DNA of 64,000 nucleotides from Acetivibrio alkalicellulosi (GTDB taxonomy: Bacteria > Bacillota > Clostridia > Acetivibrionales > Acetivibrionaceae). Numbering within the stretch: position 1 is the stretch's first letter; each line of letters starts with the position of its first letter. The stretch lies in contig VLTH01000002.1 in assembly GCA_008125075.1 (NCBI GenBank), positions 695,605 to 759,604 of the forward strand, written 5' to 3'. This document shows, piece after piece, positions 29,999 to 45,054 of the stretch. The translations under genes and the position numbers were made by a program. The notes below the pieces were generated by a model. It saw only the letters and a list, made by a program, of their open reading frames with translations. It was not told the DNA's origin and searched no databases.

Positions 29999-30010
29999 GA
30001 ATAATAAAAG

Positions 30011-31411
30011 TTAATTATATTCTAACACTGACTTAAAATCAATATACTGATTAATAAGAACTATCATTTCTTCGCGTGTAGAATAATTATCTAGAAATAG
30101 ACTTCCATTGTAGCCTTTAATTATCCCACATTTATATAATTTAGCAATGTGGTGTACAATACTTTCGTCCAAATTACTAAACTTTTCTGTAGTTAGTAGT
30201 TCTTCATCATATGGTATTGATATATCTCCTAATGATTTTGAAATGACCAGAGCAACCTCTTGACGACTTATTAATTCTTTTCTTTTTTCGTGCCAGGAAG
30301 AATCAATTAATCCAGTATCTATTGCTTCGTTAATAAACGTTTTAGACCAGTACTCTAAGTTATCTATTGGAGTTATTCCTTTAATTCTCATGATTAAAGC
30401 TATAAACTCTTCTTTTGAAGCATTAGCACGGGGTCTAAAAGAACCATCGCCATATCCTGAGATATAACCTTTACCCAAGAATGAGTTTATCTGTTCTTCT
30501 GACCACCTGTACCTGATATCATAAAAGCTCTTTTGCAAATGAATTGAGCTTTGCTTAAAGCCATAATCTAAAAGTCCAAGTACCTCCTGAAACATATTTG
30601 TACGATTTTGATTTTGCATAAGTACACATATTAATTCAAGGCCTTCATTATTTCTAGCTGAGAAAACACCTGTATTTCTTGCTGCATTTGTATAACCTGT
30701 TTTAATTCCATTTATTTTAAAAATCGATGTATCATAGGTTATGTCACGAAAGAAACGGTTTGTCGATCTTATAAGTCGAGAACCTCTTTTGTTTGTAGGA
30801 CGTAAATTGAACTGGCTTTTTGAAACTATTTCACGAAACTTTGAATTAGATGTAGCATAACGGGCAATATTTGCCATATCTCTAGCCGTTGTTATATTAT
30901 TAGGGTGTCTATCTCCTACATCAAGGCCAATTGGATTGGTAAAGTTGGTGTCTTTTGCTCCAATTTGTTTTGCCTTGTCATTCATGAGTTTTAAAAAACC
31001 AGACATACCACCACCAATATTTTCTGCAATTACATTAGCTGCATCATTTGCAGAGACTAACATAAGCATATGCAATAGGTCATTTAAGTATATTTGCTCC
31101 CCAATTATTATTCCAGCATTAGTACCACCAATACCTATATTTCTTACTGCTGTAGTGCTTGCGGTATATGGTCTTGAAAAATCCCCAAATTCAATTGCTA
31201 TTATAGTCGTCATAATCTTTGATATACTTGCTGGATGTAAAACTTTATCAGAATTTTTTTCAGAAATTACAGTGTTTGAGTTTGCATCGATTAGTATGTA
31301 AGAAGTAGAACCTGGTGCTAAATTGAGTTTTTGACCTTGTGCGTAAGAATAAAAAGGAGTAATGAATAAAGCTAAACATAAAATAACTGTAATGCATTTT
31401 TTGCTAAACAT
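30011..31411 (-). CDS. D-alanyl-D-alanine carboxypeptidase (DacF-like) with C-terminal SLH domains
   Basis: This enzyme trims the terminal D-Ala of peptidoglycan pentapeptides outside the membrane. The 466-residue form has a signal peptide (first ~25 residues, ending YSYAQG). The catalytic triad motifs of class S11 are SISK (Ser62, Lys65), SAN (120-122) and KTG (237-239). From about residue 315 three SLH-like repeats follow (GYISGYGDGSFRP is the clearest), which should attach it to wall polymers. The start is the ATG after CTGGAGG. The macroglobulin gene lies immediately downstream on the same strand, so the two may be co-expressed. Confidence 0.93.
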   Translation of the reverse strand: MFSKKCITVILCLALFITPFYSYAQGQKLNLAPGSTSYILIDANSNTVISEKNSDKVLHPASISKIMTTIIAIEFGDFSRPYTASTTAVRNIGIGGTNAGIIIGEQIYLNDLLHMLMLVSANDAANVIAENIGGGMSGFLKLMNDKAKQIGAKDTNFTNPIGLDVGDRHPNNITTARDMANIARYATSNSKFREIVSKSQFNLRPTNKRGSRLIRSTNRFFRDITYDTSIFKINGIKTGYTNAARNTGVFSARNNEGLELICVLMQNQNRTNMFQEVLGLLDYGFKQSSIHLQKSFYDIRYRWSEEQINSFLGKGYISGYGDGSFRPRANASKEEFIALIMRIKGITPIDNLEYWSKTFINEAIDTGLIDSSWHEKRKELISRQEVALVISKSLGDISIPYDEELLTTEKFSNLDESIVHHIAKLYKCGIIKGYNGSLFLDNYSTREEMIVLINQYIDFKSVLEYN

Positions 31412-31564
31412 AAATAAAACCTCCAGATTTTTTCTTTTGTTAATAACTACAATAAATTTATTCAAATATTTTGTTATGGAAAGAATAGTCGCTTTAATAA
31501 ATATCGTCATTTATATGTGAGCTATAAATCAGAAAATTAAATAAAAATTCTCAAACCTCTTAAA

Positions 31565-31618
31565 CTTGATTCACAATGTTGATCTTATTCTAATTCCTCA
31601 CATTCATTAAATGCATCC
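31565..31618. repeat. Decayed end of the MITE-like repeat (tentative)
   Basis: CTTGATTCACAATGTT, a CTTATTC block and CATTCATTAAATGCATCC follow the order of the right end of the intact copies (CTTGCTTCACAATGTTTC ... GCACCC), but similarity is low. It lies in the roughly 300-nt intergenic stretch between divergent dacF and sfsA, which otherwise shows only AT-rich promoter-like sequence. Confidence 0.35.
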
Positions 31619-31709
31619 ATTGAATAGATACCATATATTCTTAATATAAGTATATATATTCATGATATAATAATACTTAAAATATACACCATAATAATAG
31701 GAGAATCAA

Positions 31710-32396
31710 ATGAAATATTCTTTAATAAAGAAAGGGGTGTTTTTAAATCGCCCCAACAGGTTTATAGCAAATGTATCTATTGATGGAAGGGAAGAGACAG
31801 TTCATGTGAAAAATACAGGGCGTTGCAAGGAAATACTAATACATGGCACTTCTGTTGTTTTAGAAGAATCCCAAAATAAAGAAAGAAAAACAAGGTATTC
31901 ACTAATTGCAGCCTATAAGGATAATATGTTAATAAATATTGATTCTCAGGTTCCCAATCAGGTTGTATTTGAGGCTGTTAAGCAAGGAAAAATCGAAGAA
32001 TTAAAGAATATTTCTCATATAAGGAAAGAAACAAAATACAAGAATTCCAGATTTGATTTATATTATGAGAAAGAAGGCTTAAAAGGATTTGTTGAAATAA
32101 AAGGGGTTACATTAGAAAAAGATGGTATAGCCAAGTTTCCTGATGCACCTACCCAAAGAGGAACTAAACATATATATGAAATAATAAATTCGTCAGAAAA
32201 CGGATACCAAAGCTTTATTTTCTTTCTTATACAGTTTAGAGGTGTTAAATATTTTACACCAAATAGAATAATGGATGAAAGTTTTGCGTATGCACTAAAA
32301 GAAGCACATAATAAAGGTATAGCCATTTTAGTTTACGATTCAATTGTAACAGAAAATGGGATTGATTTAGGGGACATGGTAGAACTCAAAATATGA
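31710..32396 (+). CDS. sfsA: SfsA family DNA-binding/nuclease protein
   Basis: The 228-residue product matches SfsA in length and motifs: an OB-like N-terminal part (RPNRFIANVSIDG and HVKNTGRCKEIL), then the nuclease-like core FVEIKGVTLEKDGIAKFPDA with TQRGTKHIYE. Long called a sugar fermentation stimulation protein, the family has a restriction-endonuclease-like fold. It is a single gene between a divergent wall enzyme and a convergent VWA gene, and its cellular role is not clear. Confidence 0.95.
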   Translation: MKYSLIKKGVFLNRPNRFIANVSIDGREETVHVKNTGRCKEILIHGTSVVLEESQNKERKTRYSLIAAYKDNMLINIDSQVPNQVVFEAVKQGKIEELKNISHIRKETKYKNSRFDLYYEKEGLKGFVEIKGVTLEKDGIAKFPDAPTQRGTKHIYEIINSSENGYQSFIFFLIQFRGVKYFTPNRIMDESFAYALKEAHNKGIAILVYDSIVTENGIDLGDMVELKI

Positions 32397-32464
32397 CAGG
32401 GTGGATGTTATTTTAGTGAAGAATACTATATGGAAGATTAATAGTAAAACAAGTTTAGAATTCT

Positions 32465-32502
32465 AAAAAGGTCGGAGCATTGAGCCCCCACCTTTTTAAT
32501 TA
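32465..32502. terminator. Bidirectional terminator between sfsA and the VWA gene
   Basis: AAAAAGGT at 32465-32472 pairs with ACCTTTTT at 32490-32497. The A- and T-runs at each side suit both convergent transcripts. Confidence 0.7.
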
Positions 32503-32539
32503 TTGCTAAGTTTAAATAATAGCGCTTGAAAAATGGAAA

Positions 32540-34237
32540 TTACATTTGTGCATTGAACAAACTTCCAAGTTTATAGGCAACATCTTCTGTATCAGCATTA
32601 ATAAATGCCGCTTCATTAATTAATGACAATCTTTCCAGTTCGTCAATATTTGCATTATAGCCAATTGTATAAACTGGTATTCTTAATGACTTAAGAAGTC
32701 CACTTACATCATTAAATTTGTGTCCATAATTAGGTTCACCATCACCTAAGACAAATAGCATTAACTTTGCATTTGGATTTTTTTCTTTTTCCTCAAGCAA
32801 CATTCTTAAAGCCACAATAATACCGTCAAACATGGCAGTATTACCATCTAGTGTTAGATCTTTTACAGCACCTGTAAATAGTGACCTTTGATTTAAGTCA
32901 AACTTTGCTATTGGAAGATTAATAGTTACATTTGTGCCAAATGAAACAAGTCCGATAGAAGTATCGCTTTTAATAAATTTAGATGCGCTCAATAGAGATT
33001 CTTTAAGCATATTCAATGGTTCACCCATCATGCTACCAGATACATCAGCTACAAAAACTGCAACTATATCATAGTTAGAATCTTTCTTTTCCTTCCATAA
33101 TCTCTGAGCTTGTGATATTGAATCACCATCAAAGTATTCAAATTCAGGAGAGTAATCATCAAAACTATTAAAGCCATATTCTGAAGCTGTCTTCTGATTT
33201 TCATTAGATTTACAAAATTCAATAAATGCAGCTAGTATTTCTTGTTTTTCATAAGATAAGTTTCCTATAGCATACATTGGACTATCATGCCTTACTCCAA
33301 ATGGCGTAAATATATAATCTCTTTTTAACTCAGGTGAATTTACAAATGTCTGGTATTCCAGTATGAATCCGTCCAGTATTCCTGAACGAGCCGATTCTCT
33401 CATTTGTAGTGTTGTATATGAGACGAAGGGAATATTTAATTGAAATTTTTCAAATCCTTGAATGGCTTTTTCGCTTAATATATCACTTTGGTCAAAAGTA
33501 CTTAATGTTGAGAGTAGATAATTTAAACCTGTTGAACTTGCAAATGGATTTGTATATCCCATATCTAATTCATTTTCTGCAACAGCTTCAGTGATTGTTC
33601 TTATGTTTATATCCCCATATTTATCAGTGAGTTGTTTGTGTTTCCTTTTAGATAAAAGAACTCCTGCTATGTTTCCTACAAGCCTTTTTTCAATTAGTGT
33701 AATATTAGCATCTTTTGATTTTAACATTTCTCCCCAGAGTTCGTTAGAAGGAGTAAAAGCATCTGGAAGGTATTTACCTGAAACGATATAATCCATTCCC
33801 TCACCAGAAGAAATAGATCTTATTTTGACTGATACATTACTTGCATTTATTACTATATTAGAATTATTAAAAGCCTTAGCCATTTCAACTAGCCAACCAT
33901 CTTTCCCATCACCAGCTTTTTCAGGTGAAGAAAAGATTTCAATATATGTAGTTGTAGTGTTTTTTACTTGAATAGGATATTTAGAAATATCAGGCAAGGT
34001 GTCCATTAGATTAACTGGATCAATATTTATGTGTTCTTTTCTAGGCTCAACTGTATTAATTGTTATATTTTTACAAAGCCTGTCTAATCGACTAATTGCT
34101 CTTTCTGTTGACATGGTTTCTGTGTTGTTACCAAGCTTTCCTGTTAAAGTAATTCCTCCATAAATAACACCAAACACCAATAAAGATATTCCAAATAGTG
34201 TTGCTAGAATTTTAAAACTGTTATTATTTTGCGACAT
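32540..34237 (-). CDS. Membrane-anchored substrate-binding-like + VWA domain protein
   Basis: The 565-residue protein has one N-terminal membrane helix (about 10-32). An extracellular periplasmic-binding-like domain follows (about 90-345; VEMAKAFNNSN, TNPFASSTGLNYLL and DGFILEYQTF resemble type-2 solute-binding folds). A C-terminal VWA domain has an intact MIDAS, DVSGSM (Asp398, Ser400, Ser402), and later GNTAMFD and LGDGEPN. The start is the ATG with AAAGGATGG upstream; a TTG seven codons earlier is less likely. The upstream gene on the same strand encodes a membrane coiled-coil protein, a probable partner. There is no permease or ATPase nearby, so a ligand-sensing or adhesion role is more likely than transport. 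Confidence 0.85.
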   Translation of the reverse strand: MSQNNNSFKILATLFGISLLVFGVIYGGITLTGKLGNNTETMSTERAISRLDRLCKNITINTVEPRKEHINIDPVNLMDTLPDISKYPIQVKNTTTTYIEIFSSPEKAGDGKDGWLVEMAKAFNNSNIVINASNVSVKIRSISSGEGMDYIVSGKYLPDAFTPSNELWGEMLKSKDANITLIEKRLVGNIAGVLLSKRKHKQLTDKYGDINIRTITEAVAENELDMGYTNPFASSTGLNYLLSTLSTFDQSDILSEKAIQGFEKFQLNIPFVSYTTLQMRESARSGILDGFILEYQTFVNSPELKRDYIFTPFGVRHDSPMYAIGNLSYEKQEILAAFIEFCKSNENQKTASEYGFNSFDDYSPEFEYFDGDSISQAQRLWKEKKDSNYDIVAVFVADVSGSMMGEPLNMLKESLLSASKFIKSDTSIGLVSFGTNVTINLPIAKFDLNQRSLFTGAVKDLTLDGNTAMFDGIIVALRMLLEEKEKNPNAKLMLFVLGDGEPNYGHKFNDVSGLLKSLRIPVYTIGYNANIDELERLSLINEAAFINADTEDVAYKLGSLFNAQM

Positions 34238-34276
34238 AAAAAAGACCCATCCTTTCAACTAATAAGCTAAATTATA

Positions 34277-34371
34277 TATAGACATTCATTAGCATTAGAT
34301 CATCAACACAGAATAAAAACATTAAGTGCCAATGAATGTCTCCTAGGATTTGCTGTTTGTCACAGCAAATA
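34277..34371. repeat. Inverted repeats between the VWA gene and its upstream neighbour
   Basis: AGACATTCATT (34277-34287) and AATGAATGTCT (34331-34341) are exact inverted repeats 43 nt apart. A second hairpin, ATTTGCTG 34348-34355 with CAGCAAAT 34363-34370, follows. They could form a leader or processing structure in the minus-strand transcript. The segment ACATTCATTAGCA recurs near 35321. Confidence 0.55.
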
Positions 34372-34408
34372 AGTTGCACGTAAATTAAATCAAAAGCATA
34401 CATGCCTT

Positions 34409-35236
34409 TTATAAGGGGGAGTTTTTATTAAAACTATCAGGAACAGTAGGGTTTTTAGATGAAGCTTTCGATTTTTGCTTTAGCTGAGCCAGTTCACTTA
34501 TATTAGTTTCATTTCTTATCAACTCATCTAATTCTTTGATTTCATTCATACTATCAATATCACCATAACCAAGACTGTTAAATTTAGCTATTTGAAGTAA
34601 CAGAGCATCGAGCTTGAGTATTATTTCTTCATTATCGATCATAGAATTTTTAACAAAACCGATATATTCGTTATAAATACTCATTTTTGAATCAATAAGC
34701 TCTTGAGAGAATCTACTTTTTACGATATTGTCAGTAATTCTATCATAATCCTCCTGATCAAAGGCATTTACTTTATTTAAAATACTTTTAACTTTGTTAT
34801 AAAAAACATATTCAACATCAAAAATTATATCATTAAATCTTTGATAATATTTATCTATTATACTATATTTTTCGAGTAGAAGCTCATTTATTTTATTTTT
34901 TCTCTTTATCAATCTTTCGGTCTGTTCTATGACGGTAGTTATGTCGTTATCAAAAGCTTTTTTTCCATAGGATTGTCTTAGAGCAGTAAGGCAGTCCTCT
35001 AAGTTTTTAATATCTCGTATCTTTATAGTTACATTTTCTTTAGGAATCGAAATCAGTTTATAGTTTCCATAAATAAATAAAACAAGACTCATAAATATAG
35101 CTGTTCCACCTATTGAAGAACTTAAAACACTTGATTTACTCAAAATATTTATTAATCCAGGAGAAAACAACATAATATTTAAAAAGGCAATTCCTATATT
35201 TAAAAATAATAATTTTAATATCTTATTTCCGGTCAT
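34409..35236 (-). CDS. Two-helix membrane protein with coiled-coil C-terminal domain, unknown function
   Basis: The 275-residue protein has two hydrophobic helices (about 8-28 and 42-60) and then about 200 mostly helical, charged residues with coiled-coil character, ending in a Ser/Lys/Asn-rich tail. Most of it should be cytoplasmic. I recognise no enzyme motif. It is the first gene of a probable two-gene unit with the VWA protein downstream. By position it may couple that extracellular domain to the cytoplasm. Confidence 0.7.
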   Translation of the reverse strand: MTGNKILKLLFLNIGIAFLNIMLFSPGLINILSKSSVLSSSIGGTAIFMSLVLFIYGNYKLISIPKENVTIKIRDIKNLEDCLTALRQSYGKKAFDNDITTVIEQTERLIKRKNKINELLLEKYSIIDKYYQRFNDIIFDVEYVFYNKVKSILNKVNAFDQEDYDRITDNIVKSRFSQELIDSKMSIYNEYIGFVKNSMIDNEEIILKLDALLLQIAKFNSLGYGDIDSMNEIKELDELIRNETNISELAQLKQKSKASSKNPTVPDSFNKNSPL

Positions 35237-35277
35237 TATATCTCACGCTCCTGAATTAAACCTCTGATTTAATGGGA

Positions 35278-35307
35278 GTGCAATTTGTTTGCCTCGCAAA
35301 CATGCAC
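35278..35307. promoter_or_regulatory. Hairpin in the leader of the coiled-coil membrane protein gene
   Basis: GTGCA (35278-35282) pairs with TGCAC (35303-35307), and TGTTTGC with GCAAACA inside it, leaving a 3-nt loop. It lies about 45 nt upstream of the minus-strand start. Confidence 0.45.
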
Positions 35308-35449
35308 ATCCTGAAGCAACATTCATTAGCAATATACTTTTTATCGTATGTTTTTGCTCATGAATCTCTAATTCAATATAATTGTAATACATTTTATCCC
35401 TTCAATCAATGAATATATTTTAAGGTGATGTATTAATAAAAGTTTTAAA

Positions 35450-35598
35450 AAAATTCCAAAAACTTAAGTTTCCCAGTTTAGAGCCTATAAATACTCCTCG
35501 GGGCCTTTGCAAAACTCGCTTGGCGAAGAAGGATGCTCTCCCTTTCCTCGTCGTATTAGCAGGTTCTATGACTTGCTTTACAAGGTTTATTCCATGAT
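35450..35598. repeat. MITE-like interspersed repeat, copy B (ends lost)
   Basis: The interior blocks of the family are present in order: AATTCCAAAAACTTAAGTTT, ATACTCCTCGGGGCC, CAAAACTCGCTTGGCG, CTCTCCCTTTCCTCGTCG and GACTTGCTTTACAAGG. The GGGTGCAT ends are missing. A minus-strand reading frame across it is an artefact of the repeat. Confidence 0.75.
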
Positions 35599-35630
35599 GT
35601 GAGCTTTTATGCTTATAAATGTCTATTAAA

Positions 35631-35662
35631 TTCATAAAATCTTCACATATAAATGTTATAAT
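35631..35662 (+). promoter_or_regulatory. Response-regulator box and promoter, site 1 (autoregulation)
   Basis: TTCATAAAATCTTCACA (35631-35647) contains two TTCA(T/C)A half-sites in direct repeat at 11-bp spacing, the layout bound by OmpR/PhoB-type dimers. TATAAT follows at 35657-35662, exactly 9 nt after the repeat, so the box occupies the -35 region as at activated Pho-type promoters. The response regulator starts about 190 nt downstream. Confidence 0.75.
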
Positions 35663-35849
35663 AAAGCAAAAAATATAAATGAAATGATCAATGTTATGAT
35701 AGAGATGAAGATAAAAAGTTTACTGATGTAAGACTGATGGTTCTATTATAAATTAAGAATAGACAATTAATTAACAAGGGTTATAAAGAATTATGACTTT
35801 TTATATAGGTCATATTTTTTTAAAAACTCATGCAGTTGGAGGAATTTTT

Positions 35850-36551
35850 ATGATAAGCTGTTCTAAAAAAGTTTTAGTGGTAGATGATGAAGAAAAAATA
35901 GTTCAGGTTGTTAAGTCCTATCTTGAGCATGCTGGATATGAGGTCTATGAAGCATATAATGGTAAAAATGCTCTTGAAACATTTGAGATAATTATGCCCG
36001 CATTAGTAGTTTTAGACTTAATGCTTCCTGATATTTCAGGAGAAGAAATATGTAAAAGATTAAGAAAGATATCGAAGGTACCTATTATTATGCTAACTGC
36101 AAAAGTTGAAGAAGAAGACATTTTAAAGGGATTGAATATTGGAGCTGACGATTATATTACAAAGCCTTTTAGCCCAAGGCAGCTTGTTGCCCGTGTAGCA
36201 GCATTACTAAGGAGGGTTTTTGAGCAAAATAGTGTACTGGGAAATCTCACTTCTTATAATGGTGGAGAGCTTATTATAGAAAATGATAAACGTGAGATAC
36301 TTAAAAATGGAACACATGTTAACCTTACACCTAATGAGTATAAAATATTAACAACATTAGCAAGTTATCCTGGAAAAACTTTTACTAGAGAAGAGCTTAT
36401 TTGCATGGCTTTGGGTGAAGATTTTGACGGCTTTGATAGAACTATAGACTCTCATATAAAAAATCTCAGACACAAAATTGAAAATGATCCTAGGGCTCCA
36501 AGATACATTTTGACAGTTCATGGAGTGGGTTATAGGTTTGGAGGAGAATAG
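35850..36551 (+). CDS. OmpR-family response regulator
   Basis: The 233-residue protein has a receiver domain with the acidic pair Asp12/Asp13, phospho-acceptor Asp56 and Lys105, and a C-terminal winged helix (LTPNEYKILTTLASYPGKTF and HIKNLRHKIENDP). The ATG after GGAGG is the start; 19 codons upstream belong to a leader frame. It forms an operon with the histidine kinase 44 nt downstream. Its predicted DNA site, a TTCATA direct repeat, is found upstream of itself and of two nearby genes. Confidence 0.96.
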   Translation: MISCSKKVLVVDDEEKIVQVVKSYLEHAGYEVYEAYNGKNALETFEIIMPALVVLDLMLPDISGEEICKRLRKISKVPIIMLTAKVEEEDILKGLNIGADDYITKPFSPRQLVARVAALLRRVFEQNSVLGNLTSYNGGELIIENDKREILKNGTHVNLTPNEYKILTTLASYPGKTFTREELICMALGEDFDGFDRTIDSHIKNLRHKIENDPRAPRYILTVHGVGYRFGGE

Positions 36552-36595
36552 TTATAGTAATTTATATCACTTAATGTTAATGGGAGGGAAAGTAT

Positions 36596-37987
36596 TTGAA
36601 ATACAACATAAGGACTAAACTATCTATATTTTTTGTCCTCGTTGCAGTTGTAAGCTTTTCTCTTATAAGTGTACTGACAAATATATTTGTAGATAGACAT
36701 TTTAGAGAATATGTTATGCGAAATCAGGAACAAAAGCATAGGGGAATAATTAATTCCATAACTCAGCAGTATATGGGAGATGGAATGTGGAATATGGATA
36801 TTATTGATACTGTGGGAGTAAGCTCTTTAGAAAGCGGCCTTATTATAAAAGTGAGGGATGAGTCAGGAAATTTATTGTGGGATGCAACAAGCCATAATGA
36901 GGGTATGTGCCAGAGAATTATAGAACAGATGTATAATAATATGAATACTAGATATCCAAATATCGAGGGAGGATATATAGAAAAACCCTACCCTATTTTT
37001 TATCATTCTCGCAGGGTAGGTACTGTGGAAATAGGATCCTATGGGCCTTTTTATCTAAACGATCATGACATGGAATTTATCAATACCTTAAATATGGTAA
37101 TTTTAGTAGTGGGGATCGTTTGTTTATTATTTGCCTTGCTTCTTGGTCAGATTGTTTCTAGGCGATTAAGTACTCCTATAACAAGAGTTATTGACACCGC
37201 TCAGTTAATTTCAAAGGGTTATTATTCAGATAGGGTGGAGGAGAAATCAAATACCATAGAAATATGTCAATTAACTGATACCATTAATAATCTTGCTGAA
37301 ACTCTTGAGAATCACGAGCTACTAAGTAAAAGACTTACTTCGGATGTTGCCCATGAGTTACGTACCCCTCTAGCAACTCTTCAAAGTCATATGGAGGCAA
37401 TGATTGATGGTATTTGGGAACCTGACCTAAAGAGGCTTAAAAGCTGCCATGAAGAGATTATTAGGTTGAGTAAAATGGTAGGTGATTTAGAAAAGCTAGC
37501 TAAGTATGAAAGTGAAATGATTGTATTAAACAAGGTTAGTTTTGATGTAACAGATTTAGTGAGACGGATAGTTTATAACTTCGAGCCAGAATTTAAAGAT
37601 AAAGGAGTAGGAATAACCCAGTCAGGAGAGAAAGAAGAAATTATGGCTGACAGGGATAAAATAAGTCAAGTTATTATTAATGTCATATCTAATGCTCTAA
37701 AGTATACACCTAAGGGTGGCAAGGTCAGTGTTTATGTCAAAAGAATGGAAAATATAATTAAAATCAGTATTAAAGATAATGGCTTGGGAATACCTGAAAG
37801 GGATTTACCCTTTATATTTGAAAGATTTTACAGAGCAGATAAATCGAGAAATAGGCTAACAGGTGGATCTGGTATTGGGCTTACAATAGCCAAAACTATA
37901 GTAGAATCTCATAAAGGATATATTGACGTTCAGAGTAAAGAGGGTGAGGGGTCTGAATTTACCATATGTTTGCCTAGATCACAATAA
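36596..37987 (+). CDS. Membrane sensor histidine kinase
   Basis: Partner of the OmpR-type regulator. It has two membrane helices (about 11-32 and 166-186) flanking an extracytoplasmic sensor of about 130 residues, a HAMP linker, a dimerisation domain with His253 in DVAHELRTPL, and a catalytic domain with N-box VISNALKYTP, DNGLGIPERD and the GGSGIGLTIAK G-box. TTG start after GGGAGGG. The signal is unknown; the regulated genes next door suggest metal, redox or Fe-S stress. Confidence 0.95.
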   Translation: MKYNIRTKLSIFFVLVAVVSFSLISVLTNIFVDRHFREYVMRNQEQKHRGIINSITQQYMGDGMWNMDIIDTVGVSSLESGLIIKVRDESGNLLWDATSHNEGMCQRIIEQMYNNMNTRYPNIEGGYIEKPYPIFYHSRRVGTVEIGSYGPFYLNDHDMEFINTLNMVILVVGIVCLLFALLLGQIVSRRLSTPITRVIDTAQLISKGYYSDRVEEKSNTIEICQLTDTINNLAETLENHELLSKRLTSDVAHELRTPLATLQSHMEAMIDGIWEPDLKRLKSCHEEIIRLSKMVGDLEKLAKYESEMIVLNKVSFDVTDLVRRIVYNFEPEFKDKGVGITQSGEKEEIMADRDKISQVIINVISNALKYTPKGGKVSVYVKRMENIIKISIKDNGLGIPERDLPFIFERFYRADKSRNRLTGGSGIGLTIAKTIVESHKGYIDVQSKEGEGSEFTICLPRSQ

Positions 37988-38097
37988 TGTCATTAAGAAG
38001 AAACTTAAGGTAAGAATTTTTATGATTAATGAAATCCTACCTAAGCTTATCATATAGATTTGATAGGAGTATAAAAGAGGGGATATTTTTGTTTACC

Positions 38098-38129
38098 TTC
38101 ATAAAATCTTCATACAACTTTGCTAGACT
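38098..38129 (+). promoter_or_regulatory. Response-regulator box and promoter, site 2 (DUF2318 gene)
   Basis: TTCATAAAATCTTCATA (38098-38114) is a perfect TTCATA direct repeat at 11-bp spacing. TAGACT with a TG extension follows at 38124-38129, again 9 nt after the repeat. Confidence 0.75.
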
Positions 38130-38163
38130 GACCTTAATTAATATTTTAGAAGGTGGGGTTGCA

Positions 38164-38688
38164 ATGAAGGGTAAAAAAAACAATAAAAAAATAACTAGTC
38201 ACTCTAAATCTAAAAAAAATATTTTAATTATCTTGGGTAGTGCAATAATATTAATGGTAGTTATTTTCATAATTAAAGGAAATTTTGGCGGAGAGGTCAA
38301 AACTGCTTTAAGTGAAGGTGGCGACTTGTTAATACCAAAGAATGAAATAACTGAAAATGTCAGCTTTTTTCCGTTGAAAGTAGAAAATACTAATATGGAA
38401 ATATTGGCTGTAAGAGCATCAGATGGATCAATTAGAACTGCATTTAATACATGTCAGGTATGTAACGGTTCTCCAAAAGCTTATTATAAGCAGGAAGGAG
38501 ATGTTGTGGTTTGTCAAAATTGTGGTAACAGATTTGCAATGGATATGATAGAGCAGCAGAGGGGTGGATGTAACCCAATCCCTATAATGAAAGATAATAA
38601 GAAGGATGTTGAGACAAATATTATTATTGCAGGGGATTATATAGCAAGAAACAAAAATATGTTTACTTCTAATTGGAAGACTAGATAA
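38164..38688 (+). CDS. DUF2318-family membrane-anchored metal-binding protein
   Basis: The 174-residue form has a lysine-rich N terminus, one membrane helix (about 20-38) and an outward domain with the DUF2318 cysteine pattern: CQVC (97, 100), CQNC (117, 120) and Cys136 in GGCNPIP. DUF2318 proteins are often found with Fe-S and iron or copper handling membrane proteins and are thought to bind metal or heme; function is not settled. The start is the ATG after AGGTGGGG; a longer frame translates the promoter. It belongs to the predicted regulon of the adjacent response regulator. Confidence 0.85.
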   Translation: MKGKKNNKKITSHSKSKKNILIILGSAIILMVVIFIIKGNFGGEVKTALSEGGDLLIPKNEITENVSFFPLKVENTNMEILAVRASDGSIRTAFNTCQVCNGSPKAYYKQEGDVVVCQNCGNRFAMDMIEQQRGGCNPIPIMKDNKKDVETNIIIAGDYIARNKNMFTSNWKTR

Positions 38689-38747
38689 CAATGCTCTTCC
38701 GATGACCCAGTTTTTATTTAAAGTAAATTTTTGGCACTTTAGCTATC

Positions 38748-38779
38748 TCCATAAAATCTTCATAGGAATTAAGTATACT
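38748..38779 (+). promoter_or_regulatory. Response-regulator box and promoter, site 3 (small membrane protein)
   Basis: TCCATAAAATCTTCATA (38748-38764) keeps one perfect and one near-perfect half-site at 11-bp spacing. TATACT at 38774-38779 follows after 9 nt. Confidence 0.75.
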
Positions 38780-38808
38780 TAATTTAATAAAATGAAGGAG
38801 GAAAACTC

Positions 38809-39045
38809 ATGAATAATCAAGATTATAAGGGAAAATCATATGGATTTCTTAAGCATTTATTGTGTATTGTACCAATAGTTGTTCTTATAATATTGTATGT
38901 GACTAGATTTAGAGGAATTCCAACGGGGAACATACTAGGTGTTGGCTTAATGATTCTGTGTCCATTATCACACTTATTGATAATACCTTTAATAATGAGA
39001 AAAAAGCAAAAAGATACAGATGAAAAGAAATCAAGCTGTCACTAA
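38809..39045 (+). CDS. Small two-helix membrane protein, DUF2933-like
   Basis: The 78-residue protein has two membrane helices (about 14-31 and 40-61), the segment ILCPLSHLLIIPLIM and a C-terminal SSCH. The LCPLxH pattern resembles DUF2933 proteins, which are often found near copper and heavy-metal genes; this link is tentative. AGGAGG precedes the ATG, and a response-regulator box drives it. A terminator follows. Confidence 0.65.
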   Translation: MNNQDYKGKSYGFLKHLLCIVPIVVLIILYVTRFRGIPTGNILGVGLMILCPLSHLLIIPLIMRKKQKDTDEKKSSCH

Positions 39046-39146
39046 GAAAGCATAAGCTGCAATAAATGAGAAAACTAGAAACAAGATTACCGACAAGTCT
39101 TCATGAATGTTTATTATATTACTTATTTTACCATTCAAATTATGCG

Positions 39147-39215
39147 TGCTCCTATAAAAGAGCTTATCTAAATCGGTTCAAAGATTTGGGAAGCTTTTAG
39201 GGAGCATTTTATTTT
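39147..39215 (+). terminator. Long stepped terminator hairpin
   Basis: TGCTCC, TAAAAG, GCTT and AAATC on the left pair in turn with GATTT, AAGC, CTTTTA and GGAGCA on the right (39147-39206), followed by TTTTATTTT. It ends the transcript of the small membrane protein gene. Confidence 0.75.
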
Positions 39216-39229
39216 GTGCGTCAATTTCT

Positions 39230-39258
39230 TATGTGACTTTGTCACATACTTTTATAAA
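39230..39258 (+). promoter_or_regulatory. Crp-type operator TGTGAC-TTT-GTCACA and -10 box upstream of the ferredoxin gene
   Basis: TATGTGACTTTGTCACATA (39230-39248) is a perfect inverted repeat of the TGTGA/TCACA type. TATAAA at 39253-39258 is a likely -10, which places the operator near -26, a position expected for repression. A Crp-family regulator is encoded 0.9 kb away whose recognition helix has the RExxxR pattern that reads TGTGA in E. coli Crp. Confidence 0.65.
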
Positions 39259-39299
39259 AAAAGGTGATAACATATAAAGAAAAGGCAGGGGGCTTCATT

Positions 39300-39500
39300 A
39301 TGAAGGTTAAAAAAAGAGCGATAATACCAAAAAATCAATGTGTAGCATGTGGAGTGTGTGTTAAAGTTTGTCCTAGAAATGCCATTTCAATAATAAGTGG
39401 AGTATATGCAAAAGTAGATGACTCTCTATGTGTTGGATGTGGATTGTGTGCAAAGGCCTGTCCTGCATCAATAATAAAAATGGAGGGTGATGTACAATGA
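39300..39500 (+). CDS. 2[4Fe-4S] ferredoxin-type protein
   Basis: The 66-residue protein has two cluster motifs, CVACGVCVKVCP and CVGCGLCAKACP, each CxxCxxCxxxCP. It should carry electrons or act as the Fe-S subunit for the membrane protein whose gene overlaps its stop by 4 nt. The ATG is chosen because the residues before it lack conservation and the AGGGGGC site fits. Confidence 0.88.
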   Translation: MKVKKRAIIPKNQCVACGVCVKVCPRNAISIISGVYAKVDDSLCVGCGLCAKACPASIIKMEGDVQ

Positions 39501-40078
39501 AAACTAAAAAGCACTGGTATGACTATTTATGGATAGCATCAACATTATATCTTTTACTTGGTTTTATAAATATTTTATTTGCATGGCTGGGACTTTTGTG
39601 CTTTTTTATTCCACTAATTATATCAATTGTAAAAGGGAACAAAGCTTATTGCAACAAGTATTGTGGTAGAGGGAAGTTATTTAATTTATTGGGAAACAAA
39701 CTCGGACTATCAATAAAAAGGGAATGTCCTACTATTTTAAGAAGACAATGGTTTCGCTATTCTTTTTTGATATTTTTCTTAACTATGTTTGGTAATATGA
39801 TTTTTGTTACCTACATGGTATTTGGAGGGTCAAGAGAATTAGTGAATGTTGTTAAACTTCTTTGGACGATAAACTTTCCTTGGAATTTTTCATATAACAA
39901 CAGTATAAGCCCCTGGATAGCACAATTTGCTTTTGGATTTTATAGCGTAATGCTTACATCTACTGTACTTGGAATAATAACTATGATTTTTTTCAAACCT
40001 CGTACATGGTGTGTATATTGTCCAATGGGAACTATGACTCAGGCTATTTGTAAAGTAAAAAATCATGGAAAAGAATAA
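39497..40078 (+). CDS. Membrane 4Fe-4S-binding protein (NapH/NosR C-terminal-like)
   Basis: The 193-residue protein has about four membrane helices and two cysteine motifs on the same side, CNKYCGRGKLF and CVYCPMGTMTQAICK. They resemble the CxxxCP elements of NapH- and NosR-type polyferredoxin membrane proteins. It overlaps the ferredoxin gene by 4 nt and probably forms a two-protein redox unit with it. The electron acceptor could be the DUF2318 protein encoded just upstream, which is inference from position. Confidence 0.78.
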   Translation: MKTKKHWYDYLWIASTLYLLLGFINILFAWLGLLCFFIPLIISIVKGNKAYCNKYCGRGKLFNLLGNKLGLSIKRECPTILRRQWFRYSFLIFFLTMFGNMIFVTYMVFGGSRELVNVVKLLWTINFPWNFSYNNSISPWIAQFAFGFYSVMLTSTVLGIITMIFFKPRTWCVYCPMGTMTQAICKVKNHGKE

Positions 40079-40083
40079 TATTT

Positions 40084-40119
40084 AAGCTGCATTTTATATA
40101 AAGAGCAGCCTTATATTTT
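40084..40119. terminator. Hairpin between convergent Fe-S operon and crp-type gene
   Basis: AAGCTGC (40084-40090) pairs with GCAGCCTT (40105-40112) with one bulged base, followed by ATATTTTT. Confidence 0.5.
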
Positions 40120-40779
40120 TCGTAGTTTTTGTTGATCAATAATTTCAATAGTGCCTCTAGAAAGTTTTACAATGCCATCAATTTGAAATTGTTTTAATAA
40201 TCTTGAAACCACTTCCCTTGCAGTTCCTAAGTCCTTTGCTATTGAATCATGGGTTGCAGTAATTATGGAGCTTTCTATTAGTTTACTTCGTTCTAATAAT
40301 ATATCTGCCAACCTTCTTCCAGTACTTGAAAAAACTAAATTATTTAAAACTACCATTACTTCAGAAAAACGGTCAGAAACTAGTTCAAGCACATAATTTT
40401 TAGCTTTATGATTAGAATCAATAATATTCTTAAAAGTATTTTTTGGAATAATTAGTAGTTCTGTATCTTCAAGTAATTCCATTTGAACTTCAATATGAAG
40501 GCTTTTTATCATACATGCTGCACTTAAAATACACACATCACCTTCTAAAAGTCGATATAAAGTAATTTCTCCACCGTTTGGCGAGGTTATATATACCCTT
40601 CCAACACCCTTATTTATGATTTCCAAACCAGAACACTCATTGTTATCATGACTAAGTCTTGTACCTTTCTTAAGTTTTTTAATAAAAGCCATCCTTAATA
40701 TATTATCTCTTTCTTCTCGGGATAAATCATTCCAAAAATTTAAACATTGGCCAAGTAAGTTTTCCATCTTTATGATCAC
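40111..40779 (-). CDS. Crp/Fnr-family transcriptional regulator
   Basis: The 222-residue protein has a cyclic-nucleotide-binding-like domain (about 25-130) and a C-terminal winged helix with the recognition helix GTAREVVSRLLKQF. It lacks the N-terminal four-cysteine cluster of Fnr, so it is not an Fe-S oxygen sensor of that type, and the cAMP-contact motif is not clear either. The GTG start sits 5 nt after AGAAGG. It is convergent with the ferredoxin/membrane Fe-S operon, whose promoter has a matching palindrome. Confidence 0.9.
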   Translation of the reverse strand: MIIKMENLLGQCLNFWNDLSREERDNILRMAFIKKLKKGTRLSHDNNECSGLEIINKGVGRVYITSPNGGEITLYRLLEGDVCILSAACMIKSLHIEVQMELLEDTELLIIPKNTFKNIIDSNHKAKNYVLELVSDRFSEVMVVLNNLVFSSTGRRLADILLERSKLIESSIITATHDSIAKDLGTAREVVSRLLKQFQIDGIVKLSRGTIEIIDQQKLRKI

Positions 40780-40897
40780 ATGCCCCTTCTTATACTAGTT
40801 TGTGTTTTTAGCTCCTATATTAATCCCAGACGAACTTATTAACTATGATTGTAGCTTCTACAGCCATCATATCAATTAATAATAAGAATTTGTTTTT

Positions 40898-41350
40898 TTA
40901 ATTAACTGGGAAGTTGGATTTGTCTACTATAATTATTGTATCTTCATTTTTATGGGGTTCAATATCAATTTCCTGGCTTTGTGAATAAATAGTTATTTTG
41001 AATCCATTATATTCATTCTTATCTTTAATACCCCAATTTTCCAATATAGTTTTACCGTTTTCTGAATTGAGTAAGTATGGACCATATTCAACCCCTTCAA
41101 TTTCTATTACATCATGTAACTTTAATATTATTCGTTTTACTGTAAGAAATTCATCACTTTTCTCACCAAAAGTAAGTCCATAATCCTTAGTTTCCATTAT
41201 GTATGTAATTAATGCTTTTTCTATTTGTTGAGCATTTCGCAAATCTGTTCTATCCCGAGATGTGCTAGAAAATAAAACAAATATTATTGATAATATTACA
41301 AACACAGAGACAGGTATAGCTATAATAATTAAAATTCTTTTAGTGTTCAA
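40898..41350 (-). CDS. Single-pass membrane protein, unknown function
   Basis: The 150-residue protein has an N-terminal membrane helix (about 5-27) and an outward domain that begins with an amphipathic stretch (RNAQQIEKALITYIMETKD). That arrangement is reminiscent of pseudopilins, though there is no prepilin cleavage motif. I do not recognise the family. TTG start; AAGGAG lies 12 nt upstream, a loose spacing. Confidence 0.5.
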   Translation of the reverse strand: MNTKRILIIIAIPVSVFVILSIIFVLFSSTSRDRTDLRNAQQIEKALITYIMETKDYGLTFGEKSDEFLTVKRIILKLHDVIEIEGVEYGPYLLNSENGKTILENWGIKDKNEYNGFKITIYSQSQEIDIEPHKNEDTIIIVDKSNFPVN

Positions 41351-41426
41351 ATGTTATTCATCTCCTTAAAGTATTATAAAATCTATAGAGTATTATACCA
41401 TATTATAGTAGGCAATAATAAATAAC

Positions 41427-41480
41427 AATTCCAGAAACTTAAGTTATACAGTCTAAAGTCTGTAAATATTCCTCGGGGCC
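41427..41480. repeat. MITE-like interspersed repeat, copy C (left-half fragment)
   Basis: AATTCCAGAAACTTAAGTTA, CAGTCTAAAGTCTGTAAATA and TTCCTCGGGGCCT match the left third of the intact family members; the rest is missing. It lies in an 838-nt intergenic region that otherwise holds AT-rich sequence, a terminator-like hairpin and a 22-codon ORF ahead of amtB. Confidence 0.7.
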
Positions 41481-41938
41481 TAATGGAGGTGTTTAAAGTT
41501 TAAATAGAAAATGTTTTATGTCTATTTTTGAAATTTATACACAGCTGTCTTTCATATCGTGATAATATATTTTTTGGAGTGTAATCTAGAATTAATTACA
41601 ATTTATTTTGAAATACAGACTGTATTATCCTTGCTTTATCAACTTACTTAAGTAATGTTTTTCAATATAAGGCTACCATTGCTTATGCTATAACCTTTCG
41701 TCATATAACTTAATATTGCTGTTCACATTATTATCAGAAAAAGCAATTATGAAAATGTTCTAGTAGAATAAAATTGAATAACTTAAATGAAAATTATCCA
41801 CTTTGAAGTATTTGAAATTTTCTCTTGCATTTTTTTATAATATGCAGTATTATTAATATAGTATTTAACGATTAGTAATGATAAATTGGTTGTAAATAAA
41901 TTTAATATAACCGTGCGGTTAAGAATTTTAAAGAAATC

Positions 41939-41986
41939 AAACAAAGGTGTTTATTCTTACAATAATATACCTTTGTTTTTTTTATA
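41939..41986 (+). terminator. Terminator/attenuator-like hairpin in the amtB leader
   Basis: AAACAAAGGT (41939-41948) pairs with ACCTTTGTTT (41969-41978), followed by a run of T. A small tight hairpin, TAACC/GGTTA near 41909-41922, precedes it. Both lie about 200 nt before amtB with no gene to terminate just upstream on this strand, so attenuation is possible. Confidence 0.6.
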
Positions 41987-42018
41987 CAAAAAACCTTGGT
42001 CAGGAAGGGGGTTGTGTG

Positions 42019-42087
42019 ATGAATAAAACTAACTTAGTAGAAAATCTGTGGGAAAACTTCCAAGGGTACAATTTATTCAAAACATAA
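42019..42087 (+). CDS. 22-codon ORF upstream of amtB
   Basis: ATG after AGGAAGGGGGTTGTGTG opens a 22-residue frame (MNKTNLVENLWENFQGYNLF and two more residues). The ribosome site is good. It lies between the attenuator-like hairpin and amtB and may be a leader peptide or a small protein; no homologue is known to me. Confidence 0.4.
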   Translation: MNKTNLVENLWENFQGYNLFKT

Positions 42088-42188
42088 AAAAACAAAATCT
42101 AATGGAAAAAATATAGCCATTTAAGGCTCATATTAAAACAAGTTAAAGCCCTATTTAAAGGGGTAGTCAAATATTTTAGGAGGTTATT

Positions 42189-43514
42189 ATGAAACTATTT
42201 AAGCGATTATTTGTTGTAATTTTATTTATGTTTATCCTTTTAATCCCTGCATTTGTTTTAGGGGCTACTGGAGAAAATGTGTCTGGTGCAGAAGCACTGT
42301 TTGTAGCTAATAATACATGGATGTTGGTGGCAACTATCCTGGTTTTTATTATGCACCTTGGGTTTGCAACTTTAGAGACTGGTCTAACTCGTGCAAAAAA
42401 CACCGTTAATATTCTTTTTAAAAACACTGCAATTGTTGCCATAGGACTTCTCACTTATGCTATAATTGGATTTAACCTCATGTATCCAGGAGAATTTATA
42501 ATTGGTGAATTTTTTGGATTTGGGGGATTTGGTGTTTCAAGTCCCGAAGGAGCTGCAGGTCTCATTAACTACGCTGGAGGGGCTTACACCTACTGGACAG
42601 ACTTTATCTTTCAGGGTATGTTTGCTGCTACAGCAGCCACAATTGTATCTGGAGCTGTAGCCGAGAGAATAAAGCTTCACAGCTTTCTTATCTTCAGTGC
42701 TATATATGTAGCACTTATATATCCCTGGGTGGGAAGCTGGCACTGGGGTGAAGGATGGTTGAGCCAAATGGGTTTTTATGATTTTGCTGGTTCAACTTTG
42801 GTTCATAGCGTAGGCGGTTGGGCGGCTCTTGCAGGAGTAATTCTTCTTGGACCACGTATTGGCAAATATGTAAACGGCACTATAAAACCTATAATGGGAC
42901 ACAGTATGCCCCTCGCTGCTATAGGAGTCTTTTTGCTTTGGTTTGGTTGGTTTGGCTTCAATGGTGGATCAGTCCTTTCAGCTGATCCTGGTGAAGTTTC
43001 ACTAGTTTTTGTAACTACATGCCTTGCAGCAGCTGCTGGTGTAATGGGAGCTATGATTCTCTCTTGGATAGTCCAGAAAAAGCCTGACCTAACAATGGCT
43101 TTAAATGGAGCTCTTGCAGGACTAGTTGGGATTACAGCTGGTGCAGATGTTATTAGTCCTATGGGTTCTGTAATAGTTGGTTTTATAGCAGGAATTATAG
43201 TTGTATTTTCCGTAATCGCTTTTGACAGACTTAAGCTTGATGATCCTGTTGGAGCTTTATCTGTTCACTTGGTCTGTGGAATTTGGGGCACATTAGCAGT
43301 TGGTATTTTCAGTGTAGAACATTCGTTTTTCATTCAACTATTGGGAGTTGCATCTTATGGAGCGGTATGTTTCACATCTGCATTTATTATTTTTGCACTG
43401 GTAAAGAAGTTCCTTGGTCTCAGAGTTTCCAAAGAAGAAGAACTCAAAGGCCTCGATATTGGAGAACATGGTATGGAAGCATATAGCGGCTTTCAAATAT
43501 TTAGAAATCAATAA
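42189..43514 (+). CDS. amtB: Ammonium transporter AmtB
   Basis: AmtB conducts ammonium/ammonia across the membrane. The 441-residue protein has a cleavable signal peptide (first ~25 residues), eleven predicted helices, and conserved family blocks [36 protein letters not shown] and [14 protein letters not shown], with the pore histidines in [13 protein letters not shown] and [16 protein letters not shown] precedes the ATG. glnK follows after 11 nt, the classical pairing in which the PII trimer blocks the channel. Confidence 0.97.
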
Positions 43515-43525
43515 GGAGGATTTTT

Positions 43526-43867
43526 ATGAAACTTATAATTGCATATATTCAGCCTGAGAAACTAAACGAAGTTAAACAAGAACTCTTGAAAGAAGGTATT
43601 ATGAAAATGTCTGTTACTAATTCCCTTGGTTGTGGTCAGCAAGGAGGATATAAAGAGTCCTACCGAGGAGTTGAAACAGAAGTAAATCTTCTTCAAAAGA
43701 TGAGAATAGAGATAGCAATTAATGACGAATTCGTCGATAAAACCACAAACGCTATAATAAGAGGAGCAAAAACAGGAAATATAGGTGACGGAAAGATTTT
43801 TGTTCTAGACCTTGTTAATTGTATTAGAATTAGAACTGGAGAAAATGGTAGTGATGCAATTGGATAG
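43526..43867 (+). CDS. glnK: Nitrogen regulatory PII protein (GlnK type) without Tyr51
   Basis: PII proteins sense ATP/ADP and 2-oxoglutarate and gate AmtB. The 113-residue protein has the T-loop segment [18 protein letters not shown] and the B-loop [11 protein letters not shown]. Position 51, the uridylylated tyrosine in enterobacteria, is threonine (YRGVET), so control by uridylylation is not expected. Tyr46 remains. It is translated just after amtB, as expected for a dedicated channel regulator. Confidence 0.95.
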
Positions 43868-43948
43868 ACAAATATATAGCAGCCTTTTATAATAAATTCT
43901 ATTTAAATGCTTAGCCAGCCACTATACCACACGTCCTAAAAATCAAAA

Positions 43949-44046
43949 AAAGGTGCCATTAATTAATGGCGCCTTTGTCAATTTAAAATTGACAATGAAA
44001 AAAAAATAGCTTAAACTTTAGCTTAGGAGGATTATCCTCTGTCAAC
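43949..44046 (+). terminator. Terminator and cluster of inverted repeats after glnK
   Basis: AAAGGTGCCATT (43949-43960) and AATGGCGCCTTT pair as a strong hairpin. Next, TTGTCAATTT/AAATTGACAA (43975-43995) and GAGGAT/ATCCTC (44027-44039) form further hairpins. TGTCAA at 44039-44044 could compete for TTGACA. The first is the likely amtB-glnK terminator; the rest of this 265-nt gap may be a structured RNA. Confidence 0.6.
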
Positions 44047-44132
44047 AATCTGTTTTACTTAAATGTAGTATGAAATATTATAAAATTTACATAATATAAA
44101 ATAAAAAGAATATATTAAAGGAAAGCGAAAAC

Positions 44133-44963
44133 ATGTTTTTATTTTTTAATGAATTAAAAAGGTTATACTACTTTATCGTGGCAATTAGTTGTGTAATACT
44201 TCTAATAACTCAAGTAATTTTTAATACTAATTTTTTGATTACATTTCTATTTCTAGTTACTTTGAATCTTTTGGTTTTATATAAATTAAATTTATTTGCG
44301 TTTGGGAAACTAGTAAATATAATATCAAACGAGTGTGATCCTGAAAAATTTATTTCACTCTCAAAAAAAATGATGAACACAAAATTATATGGTGAAATAA
44401 TAAAGAAAAAAATTCAAGCACATTTTGTTTGGGCACTTATGTGGAATGGGAGTTATGAAGAAGCTTTACAAAACTTAAATACTATTCAAAAATCAATTTC
44501 AAAAAAAACAGAGACTACTAAACAAAAAAAAGTACTAAATACTAAGCAAATTTCCATTTACCAATTATTAATTGGAATTTATACTGCCAATAAAGATTTC
44601 AAAAATGTTAGAAAAGTTTATGAGGAACTTAAGGAATATATAACCAATTCAAAGGTTAGTAAAATGAAAAAAGATGACTATAAGAACATATTAACTTCTG
44701 ATTATTTATATATTAACTTTCTTGAAGGAAATTTTGAAAATTCAGAAGAAATTTTTAAGTTGATGGAAATAAGATATCTTCAGGAATATAAAAATTCATA
44801 TTGTAAACTGTTAAGAATTTCGGCTAAGTTTCATCTTGGTAATATATATCTAAGATTTAACAAAAATAATGAAGCTAAGGAAGCGTTTGAGTATGTGGTG
44901 TCAATGGGCAATAAACTAAATATTGTTAATGAAGCAAGAAGTTACTTAGATAGTATGCAATAA
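44133..44963 (+). CDS. Membrane-anchored TPR-like protein, paralogue 1
   Basis: The 276-residue protein has two N-terminal membrane helices (about 10-30 and 34-52) and a cytoplasmic helical-repeat domain of the TPR type (NGSYEEALQNLNTI, NKDFKNVRKVYEELKEYI, LGNIYLRFNKNNEAKEAFEYV). It is about one-third identical by eye to the next gene, sharing ECDPxxFI, YINFLEGxxEN and EAKxAFEYV. No family name comes to mind. AAAGGA precedes the ATG. The AT-rich, Lys/Asn-heavy coding looks like accessory DNA. Confidence 0.7.
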   Translation: MFLFFNELKRLYYFIVAISCVILLITQVIFNTNFLITFLFLVTLNLLVLYKLNLFAFGKLVNIISNECDPEKFISLSKKMMNTKLYGEIIKKKIQAHFVWALMWNGSYEEALQNLNTIQKSISKKTETTKQKKVLNTKQISIYQLLIGIYTANKDFKNVRKVYEELKEYITNSKVSKMKKDDYKNILTSDYLYINFLEGNFENSEEIFKLMEIRYLQEYKNSYCKLLRISAKFHLGNIYLRFNKNNEAKEAFEYVVSMGNKLNIVNEARSYLDSMQ

Positions 44964-45054
44964 TATTATTAAGCCCAGTGTTTTTTAGATAGTAAATAAG
45001 GTTTTAGGTAAGAGATGTTAAGTTAAATAAAATAATATAAAGATTGGTGATAAA

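Follow-up and report, generated by a model that had tools for sequence, protein, structure and literature searches.

The window analysed here is a stretch of 64,000 nucleotides from the Acetivibrio alkalicellulosi genome (contig VLTH01000002.1, positions 695,605 to 759,604), and the subject of this work is a two-component regulatory locus within it, together with the direct repeats found upstream of its genes. The locus encodes a response regulator with receiver and winged-helix domains and an adjoining sensor histidine kinase; the Pfam matches of both are above cut-off and place the pair in the OmpR/PhoB family. Further downstream are the genes of a Cys-rich FtrD-like protein, named DUF2318 in the original prediction, and of a hydrophobic 78-aa protein (Table 1). 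Five cysteines of the FtrD-like protein (Cys97, 100, 117, 120 and 136) are identical in 31/31 aligned sequences, the window's included. The 78-aa protein had been called DUF2933-like; no Pfam or NCBIfam match was found for it at E <= 0.001, and the resemblance is a general one only. Two homologues (43% and 47%) are present in one related genome (G044), likewise downstream of the motif described below.

Three copies of a TTCATAAAATCTTCAYA-type direct repeat are found on the plus strand of the window, upstream of the regulator, FtrD-like and 78-aa genes. The original prediction described the three promoter layouts as identical. The positions, strand and 11-bp half-site period of the copies were reproduced, but the third copy starts with TCCATA and has one mismatch to TTCATAAAATCTTCAYA. 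In all three copies exactly 9 nt separate the end of the repeat from a TAnnnT box, as had been claimed for these same boxes. The two bases just 5' of the motif (positions -2 and -1) are aa, cc and tc. The transcript starts in Table 1 are predictions from an A at motif position +38, which is present in 71% of 71 sites.

Table 1. Repeats, operators, predicted promoters and genes of the locus (window coordinates)
Feature	Positions	Strand	Details
Repeat copy 1	35631-35647	+	TTCATAAAATCTTCACA; 9 nt, then TATAAT
Repeat copy 2	38098-38114	+	TTCATAAAATCTTCATA; 9 nt, then TAGACT
Repeat copy 3	38748-38764	+	TCCATAAAATCTTCATA; 9 nt, then TATACT
Operator 1, 5' of response regulator gene	35629-35647	+	aaTTCATAAAATCTTCACA
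Operator 2, 5' of FtrD-like/DUF2318 gene	38096-38114	+	ccTTCATAAAATCTTCATA
Operator 3, 5' of 78-aa gene	38746-38764	+	tcTCCATAAAATCTTCATA
-10 box 1	35657-35662	+	TATAAT; extended -10 TG present; predicted start A 35669
-10 box 2	38124-38129	+	TAGACT; extended -10 TG present; predicted start A 38136
-10 box 3	38774-38779	+	TATACT; without TG; predicted start A 38786
OmpR/PhoB-type response regulator	35850-36551	+	233 aa; Response_reg, Trans_reg_C
Membrane sensor histidine kinase	36596-37987	+	TTG start; HAMP, HisKA, HATPase_c
FtrD-like Cys-rich protein	38164-38688	+	174 aa; PF10080
Hydrophobic protein	38809-39045	+	78 aa; C-terminal SSCH; open reading frame (ORF)
2[4Fe-4S] ferredoxin	39300-39500		ORF
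Fer4_5 membrane protein	39497-40078		ORF
Crp/Fnr-type gene	40111-40779	-	

Rarity and conservation of the promoter geometry

Within the window alone, five matches with up to three mismatches were found against 2.31 expected, and 10 of 100 shuffled sequences reached five. This count is within chance, so the decisive test was a genome-wide search, which had also been proposed originally. In the genome of 5,307,226 bases there are 25 motif matches with at most two mismatches, compared to 19 for the reversed pattern. Only four sites have at most one mismatch: the three window copies and one on the minus strand of the same contig, 2.3 Mb away (C2:3080211-3080227). This fourth site is new relative to the original prediction and has the box TAGTAT at offset 9. 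All four sites therefore precede a TAnnnT box by exactly 9 nt, compared to 0/21 of the two-mismatch sites. The strict pattern of motif, nine bases and TANNNT has three exact matches in the genome and no control matches; the window's third site, with its TCC start, is covered by the relaxed motif pattern only.

The conservation of this layout was analysed in 60 genomes (A. alkalicellulosi itself and members of its genus, family, order and class). Kinase orthologues, defined as matches above 540 bits (the next matches are at most 316 bits), were detected in 35/59 other genomes with 53-66% identity. The other four genomes sampled from the genus, including one that is only 55% complete, yielded no orthologue of the regulator-kinase pair, which is common in the order; this patchy distribution suggests transfer or repeated loss. 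The relaxed motif followed by nine bases and TANNNT was found 96 times in the 60 genomes, compared to no match for the reversed pattern.

A set of 62 regions (60 from relatives, the region of the fourth site, L026, and part of the window) was then fetched; these were selected by kinase orthologue or motif match, without regard to -10 boxes, and cover part of the motif matches. They contain 91 sites with at most one mismatch, and in 80/91 a TAnnnT box is found at offset 9, while no other offset in the range 0-17 has it at more than nine sites. With the background of 0.033 per offset estimated from those other offsets, the binomial probability is negligible. The flanks are diverse, forming 82 clusters among the 91 sites at 70% identity. 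After similar flanks were collapsed, the box was retained at offset 9 in 71/82 sites and at no more than nine for any other offset between 0 and 24. The reversed consensus was matched three times in 1.39 Mb, in no case with a box. In named genomes, offset 9 was kept in 39 of 44 distinct further sites; these 44 were left after removal of the 19/65 already seen and of duplicates, since the named loci overlap the other genomes. The analysis confirmed that the observed layout is real, functional-looking and conserved. In one region (L098:3233-3271) operators overlap, and four half-sites follow one another every 11 bp upstream of an FtrD-like gene.

To refine the operator, the 71 non-redundant sites that carry a box were used. 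In this set the 17 motif bases and TAnnnT had been criteria of selection, and the independent evidence is in the flanking columns. A C at -1 is present in 97% of the sites, a T at -2 in 83% and an A at -3 in 49%, so the upstream unit is TCTTCA or ATCTTCA, longer than first stated. The downstream unit is AAATCTTCA. At the -35 position (17-bp spacing) ATAAAA is found in 62/71 sites and there is no TTGACA, and 47/71 carry an extended -10 TG. The operator is thus at a fixed distance from the -10 box with no -35 hexamer, as in PhoB-type promoters.

No Rfam family was detected at the gathering threshold in positions 30000-45000. The 184-nt leader between the predicted start and the start codon of the regulator does not fold notably well (z = -1.45; 16 of 200 shuffles as good). 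A dispersed repeat of about 150 bp is located at 35447-35595, about 35 bp 5' of operator 1, and by eye it is GC-richer than its surroundings. Other copies in the window are at about 21748-21899 and 55334-55482. Genome-wide, at least 40 matches (self included) were scored from 155 candidates, the others being 79-90% identical; the copies are found on both strands and on all three contigs, and have no Rfam match. Six aligned copies have a mean column identity of 86%. The repeat is possibly an element resembling a miniature inverted-repeat transposable element, or an unknown RNA.

Co-occurrence with the kinase and target genes

The motif with its box was found in 32/36 genomes with a kinase orthologue and in 2/24 without (Fisher p = 2e-10, with shared ancestry ignored). 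A gene combining HMA, DsbD_2 and cupredoxin domains (E <= 1e-60) is present in 36/36 kinase genomes and in 1/24 of the rest (G027; p = 1e-15, ancestry again ignored). Both tables were counted by hand and include the A. alkalicellulosi genome.

With the relaxed motif and at most one mismatch, 106 sites with a box were collected, and for 92 of them a gene start was called 15-300 nt beyond the box. These 92 targets include 30 FtrD-like, 19 HMA-DsbD_2-cupredoxin and 10 DUF6803-like genes, seven regulator genes, three members of the 78-aa family (window included) and one other HMA gene. The remaining 22 are other genes, among them those of a cytochrome b5-like protein and of proteins with sub-threshold zinc-ribbon matches; the majority belongs to copper-handling families, an assignment made by family only. 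In one region (L127), and outside this count, a site overlaps a DsbD_TM gene at its called start. Genes of relatives were called with a simple ORF finder, so small genes and start positions are uncertain, and window operator 2 fell inside a longer called FtrD-like ORF and is excluded from the 30. A common N-terminal string served to count the DUF6803-like targets, one of which was scanned against Pfam. One such gene is preceded by motif and box in a 100%-complete genome with neither a regulator nor a kinase orthologue (G009, L130:4533).

Many of the relatives' regions contain, in this order and in whole or in part, FtrD-like, HMA-DsbD_2-cupredoxin, HMA-bearing P-type ATPase, 70-aa HMA protein, regulator and kinase genes. 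In Acetoanaerobium noterae, a site whose offset-9 box is TAAATT is followed by an HMA-DsbD_2-cupredoxin-like ORF, an ATPase, one further ORF, the regulator and the kinase (assessed by eye). The HMA-bearing P-type ATPases of the fetched regions possess CPC in 18/18 and MxxSS in 16/18 cases, motifs which we take to mark Cu(I) pumps. Small GMxCxHC proteins are also common there.

The fourth A. alkalicellulosi site fits this pattern. Its box ends 32 nt before a 600-aa gene in which the domains HMA (PF00403) and DsbD_2 (PF13386) are accompanied by a sub-threshold cupredoxin match (PF13473; 23.9 bits, cut-off 27), and the site with this gene points to copper. Directly upstream of the fourth operator is a dockerin-bearing serpin (L026:6508-7974, minus strand), and a second dockerin protein (L026:3033-4337, plus strand) lies beyond the target gene. 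One CsoR gene was found in the genome, on C3, beside a Cu-type ATPase ORF that exceeds the family cut-off; another ATPase nearby falls short of it. No operator with at most one mismatch is present at this locus (CsoR operators themselves were not searched for), and the CsoR and two-component systems therefore look separate.

The ferredoxin and Fer4_5 genes that follow the window locus were excluded from the regulon because they have no operator immediately 5' and, in the fetched relatives, a single 22% match (L120) beside the motif. A perfect palindrome, TGTGACTTTGTCACA, is located at 39232-39246, 5' of the ferredoxin gene and near the Crp/Fnr-type gene. It looks like a Crp-family operator; with one match at up to two mismatches against 1.03 expected, the count alone is no evidence for this.

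Probable mechanism and rival explanations

The most probable explanation, and one we hold with considerable confidence, is that the locus encodes a CopRS-like two-component copper regulon with PhoB-style activation at promoters without a -35 element. The kinase would sense a copper-type signal outside the membrane and phosphorylate the regulator, which would bind two ATCTTCA-type half-sites arranged head-to-tail 11 bp apart. Since the operator ends 9 nt before an often extended -10 box, the bound regulator would occupy the place of the -35 element and may recruit RNA polymerase as PhoB does. The targets in A. alkalicellulosi would be the operon of the regulator itself, the genes of the FtrD-like and 78-aa proteins and the distant HMA-DsbD_2-cupredoxin-like gene; their joint role at the membrane would be in copper handling and thiol redox, alongside the separate CsoR/Cu-type ATPase locus. 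The original prediction had proposed an OmpR/PhoB-class activator at -35-less promoters, autoregulation and control of a metal or redox membrane locus. All three proposals are supported by the conservation of offset 9 in relatives, by the co-occurrence of motif and kinase orthologue and by the likeness of the motif to the box of the copper regulator CopR.

The metal identity rests on the targets and the operator and not on the sensor. The extracytoplasmic domain of the kinase was modelled at high confidence, with a mean predicted local distance difference test score of 91. Foldseek searches with this model gave no hit at E <= 0.001, the best (5.5e-3) being a weak resemblance to sensor domains, and a sequence search of the PDB with the domain gave nothing below E 0.2. 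A metal site therefore could not be argued from the fold, and the identification of the sensor from structure was dropped. A set of 37 sensor sequences was also compared (the window's and 36 from the 80 named loci), in which His100 is frequent without being invariant.

Several observations weigh against the copper regulon as described. Cys105 is invariant in 37/37 sensor sequences and is the sole invariant residue among the likely metal ligands, and residue 111, a His in 22/24 sequences, is a Gln in the window kinase. The -10 box of site 2 (TAGACT) is weak, and the upstream half-site in the window fits the Corynebacterium glutamicum CopR box less well than the downstream half. The offset-9 box is absent at 11/91 sites, including exact motifs in two genomes (G021, L134; G029, L137), and TAnnnT is found at offset 22 in 14/91. 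Four genomes (G020, G022, G038 and G041) possess the kinase but were missed by the strict pattern, near variants being present, while two (G009 and G037) have motif and box without a regulator or kinase orthologue. Among the plasmid clusters of Bacilli discussed below, the Enterococcus region (L242) has one weakly recognisable site with three mismatches and a box at offset 9, and in the Carnobacterium region (L241) no matching site with a box was found.

The same regulon and geometry could also answer to a signal other than copper, such as silver, another soft metal, or extracytoplasmic thiol, disulfide or redox stress perceived through the invariant kinase cysteine. FtrD-like, DsbD_2 and DsbD_TM proteins are redox-type families, no other likely ligand of the sensor is invariant, and the kinase scores alike against WalK, BaeS and heavy-metal models, all under their cut-offs. 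HMA, cupredoxin-like, Cu-type ATPase and chaperone-like neighbours argue for copper instead, as does the likeness of the operator to the CopR box, and a different signal appears rather unlikely. Still less credible is that a different OmpR-type regulator binds the sites and the adjacent pair is a passenger. The two genomes with sites and no orthologue would be accommodated in this way, but the co-occurrence of motif and kinase, the presence of a site in the regulator's own promoter and the distance to the closest paralogue in the genome (just 43% identical; 180.6 vs 512.9 bits) would not.

It is similarly improbable that the box is no activator site but a repressor operator that overlaps a weak promoter. 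The box does occupy the -35 region and the present data are neutral on the direction of the effect; however, no -35 hexamer lies beneath it (ATAAAA), and the fixed 9-nt spacing with a frequent extended -10 fits a -35-replacing activator as described for PhoB (PMC4496699). That the sites arose by chance, or by promoter duplication, in a genome rich in AT can be practically dismissed, even though shuffled windows reached the window-only count. Chance repetition is refuted by the genome-wide rarity with its fourth site, the contrast of 4/4 with 0/21 boxes, the conservation of offset 9 in 80/91 sites and the 96 matches against none reversed, while duplication is contradicted by the differing flanks (82 clusters among 91 sites).

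A copper regulon of this kind would give a family of sensor systems in Clostridia a binding site, a promoter rule and a list of targets, all of them testable, and would link poorly known families (FtrD-like, DUF6803, HMA-DsbD_2-cupredoxin and small Cys-rich proteins) to copper, in a layout that recurs in dozens of related genomes.

Comparison with known systems

No description of the clostridial regulon and operator was found among the titles and abstract beginnings of the literature matches listed, and a search with the motif letters gave no title on such a regulator among the matches listed. The accessible main text of a C. thermocellum DNA affinity purification sequencing paper (PMC8457756) contains no TTCATA, OmpR or heavy metal. 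The regulator class, the promoter mechanism and the target families are each known; no description of them in combination, or of the operator in Clostridia, was found among the matches listed.

Enterococcus and Carnobacterium plasmids encode regulators 53-56% identical to that of the window, with a kinase adjoining, beside genes with multicopper oxidase domains; the Enterococcus region also contains a CopY-family regulator, HMA and DUF2933 genes. These clusters differ from the window in that the multicopper oxidase-domain gene adjoins the regulator. A tentative possibility is that the clostridial targets form an anaerobic envelope copper pathway, in which HMA-DsbD_2-cupredoxin, FtrD-like and small Cys/His/Met-rich membrane proteins would be a single chain for the transfer of electrons and copper. 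A sensor of extracytoplasmic Cu(I)/thiol would induce them together, and the pathway would work without the O2-dependent multicopper oxidase found beside the Bacilli plasmid regulators.

The box of the Gram-negative CusRS/CopRS systems is an inverted repeat. In these systems, a kinase senses extracytoplasmic copper and acts with a response regulator, which is the arrangement proposed here.

The CsoR copper meta-regulon of gut Firmicutes has overlapping target families (DUF2318, HMA with DsbD_2 and in some cases DUF2318, and the CopA ATPase; PMC4938975). CsoR, however, is a one-component repressor, in contrast to the two-component system in A. alkalicellulosi. PhoB, an OmpR-family regulator, binds 11-nt direct repeats (PMC4415409) at promoters without a canonical -35, where it recruits sigma region 4 (PMC4496699). 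The clostridial sites resemble these in the repeat, in the lack of a canonical -35 and in the OmpR-type regulator proposed to bind them, and recruitment of the polymerase would be analogous; they differ from the PhoB class in half-site and targets, and an extended -10 is common among them.

A closely similar operator is known from C. glutamicum, where CopR activates genes for copper resistance and binds the direct repeat TGAAGATTTgaTGAAGATTT, as determined by electrophoretic mobility shift assays on fragments with mutations (PMC3140484, consulted after the clostridial motif was derived). The reverse complement of this box is AAATCTTCAtcAAATCTTCA, i.e. two AAATCTTCA units separated by 2 nt, so that half-site and 11-bp period are those of the clostridial downstream unit. 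By eye, the downstream half is identical over 9 nt. For the upstream half the agreement extends to TCTTCA in most relatives and is poorer in the window. The clostridial regulator is likened to CopR by the box alone and not by the protein. CopRS is likewise a two-component copper regulator with a direct repeat of TGAAGATTT (the reverse complement of AAATCTTCA) that activates its own operon and has a P-type ATPase among its targets. The two systems differ in promoter architecture: a single CopR site, at -266 to -285 relative to the mapped cg3286 start, serves two divergent operons (the copR start is unmapped; PMC3140484), whereas in A. alkalicellulosi each of four sites, one of them distant, keeps a constant 9 nt to the -10 box, with FtrD-like and HMA-DsbD_2-cupredoxin targets. 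The shared sequence suggests that a copper operator half-site may be common to a corynebacterium and Clostridia.

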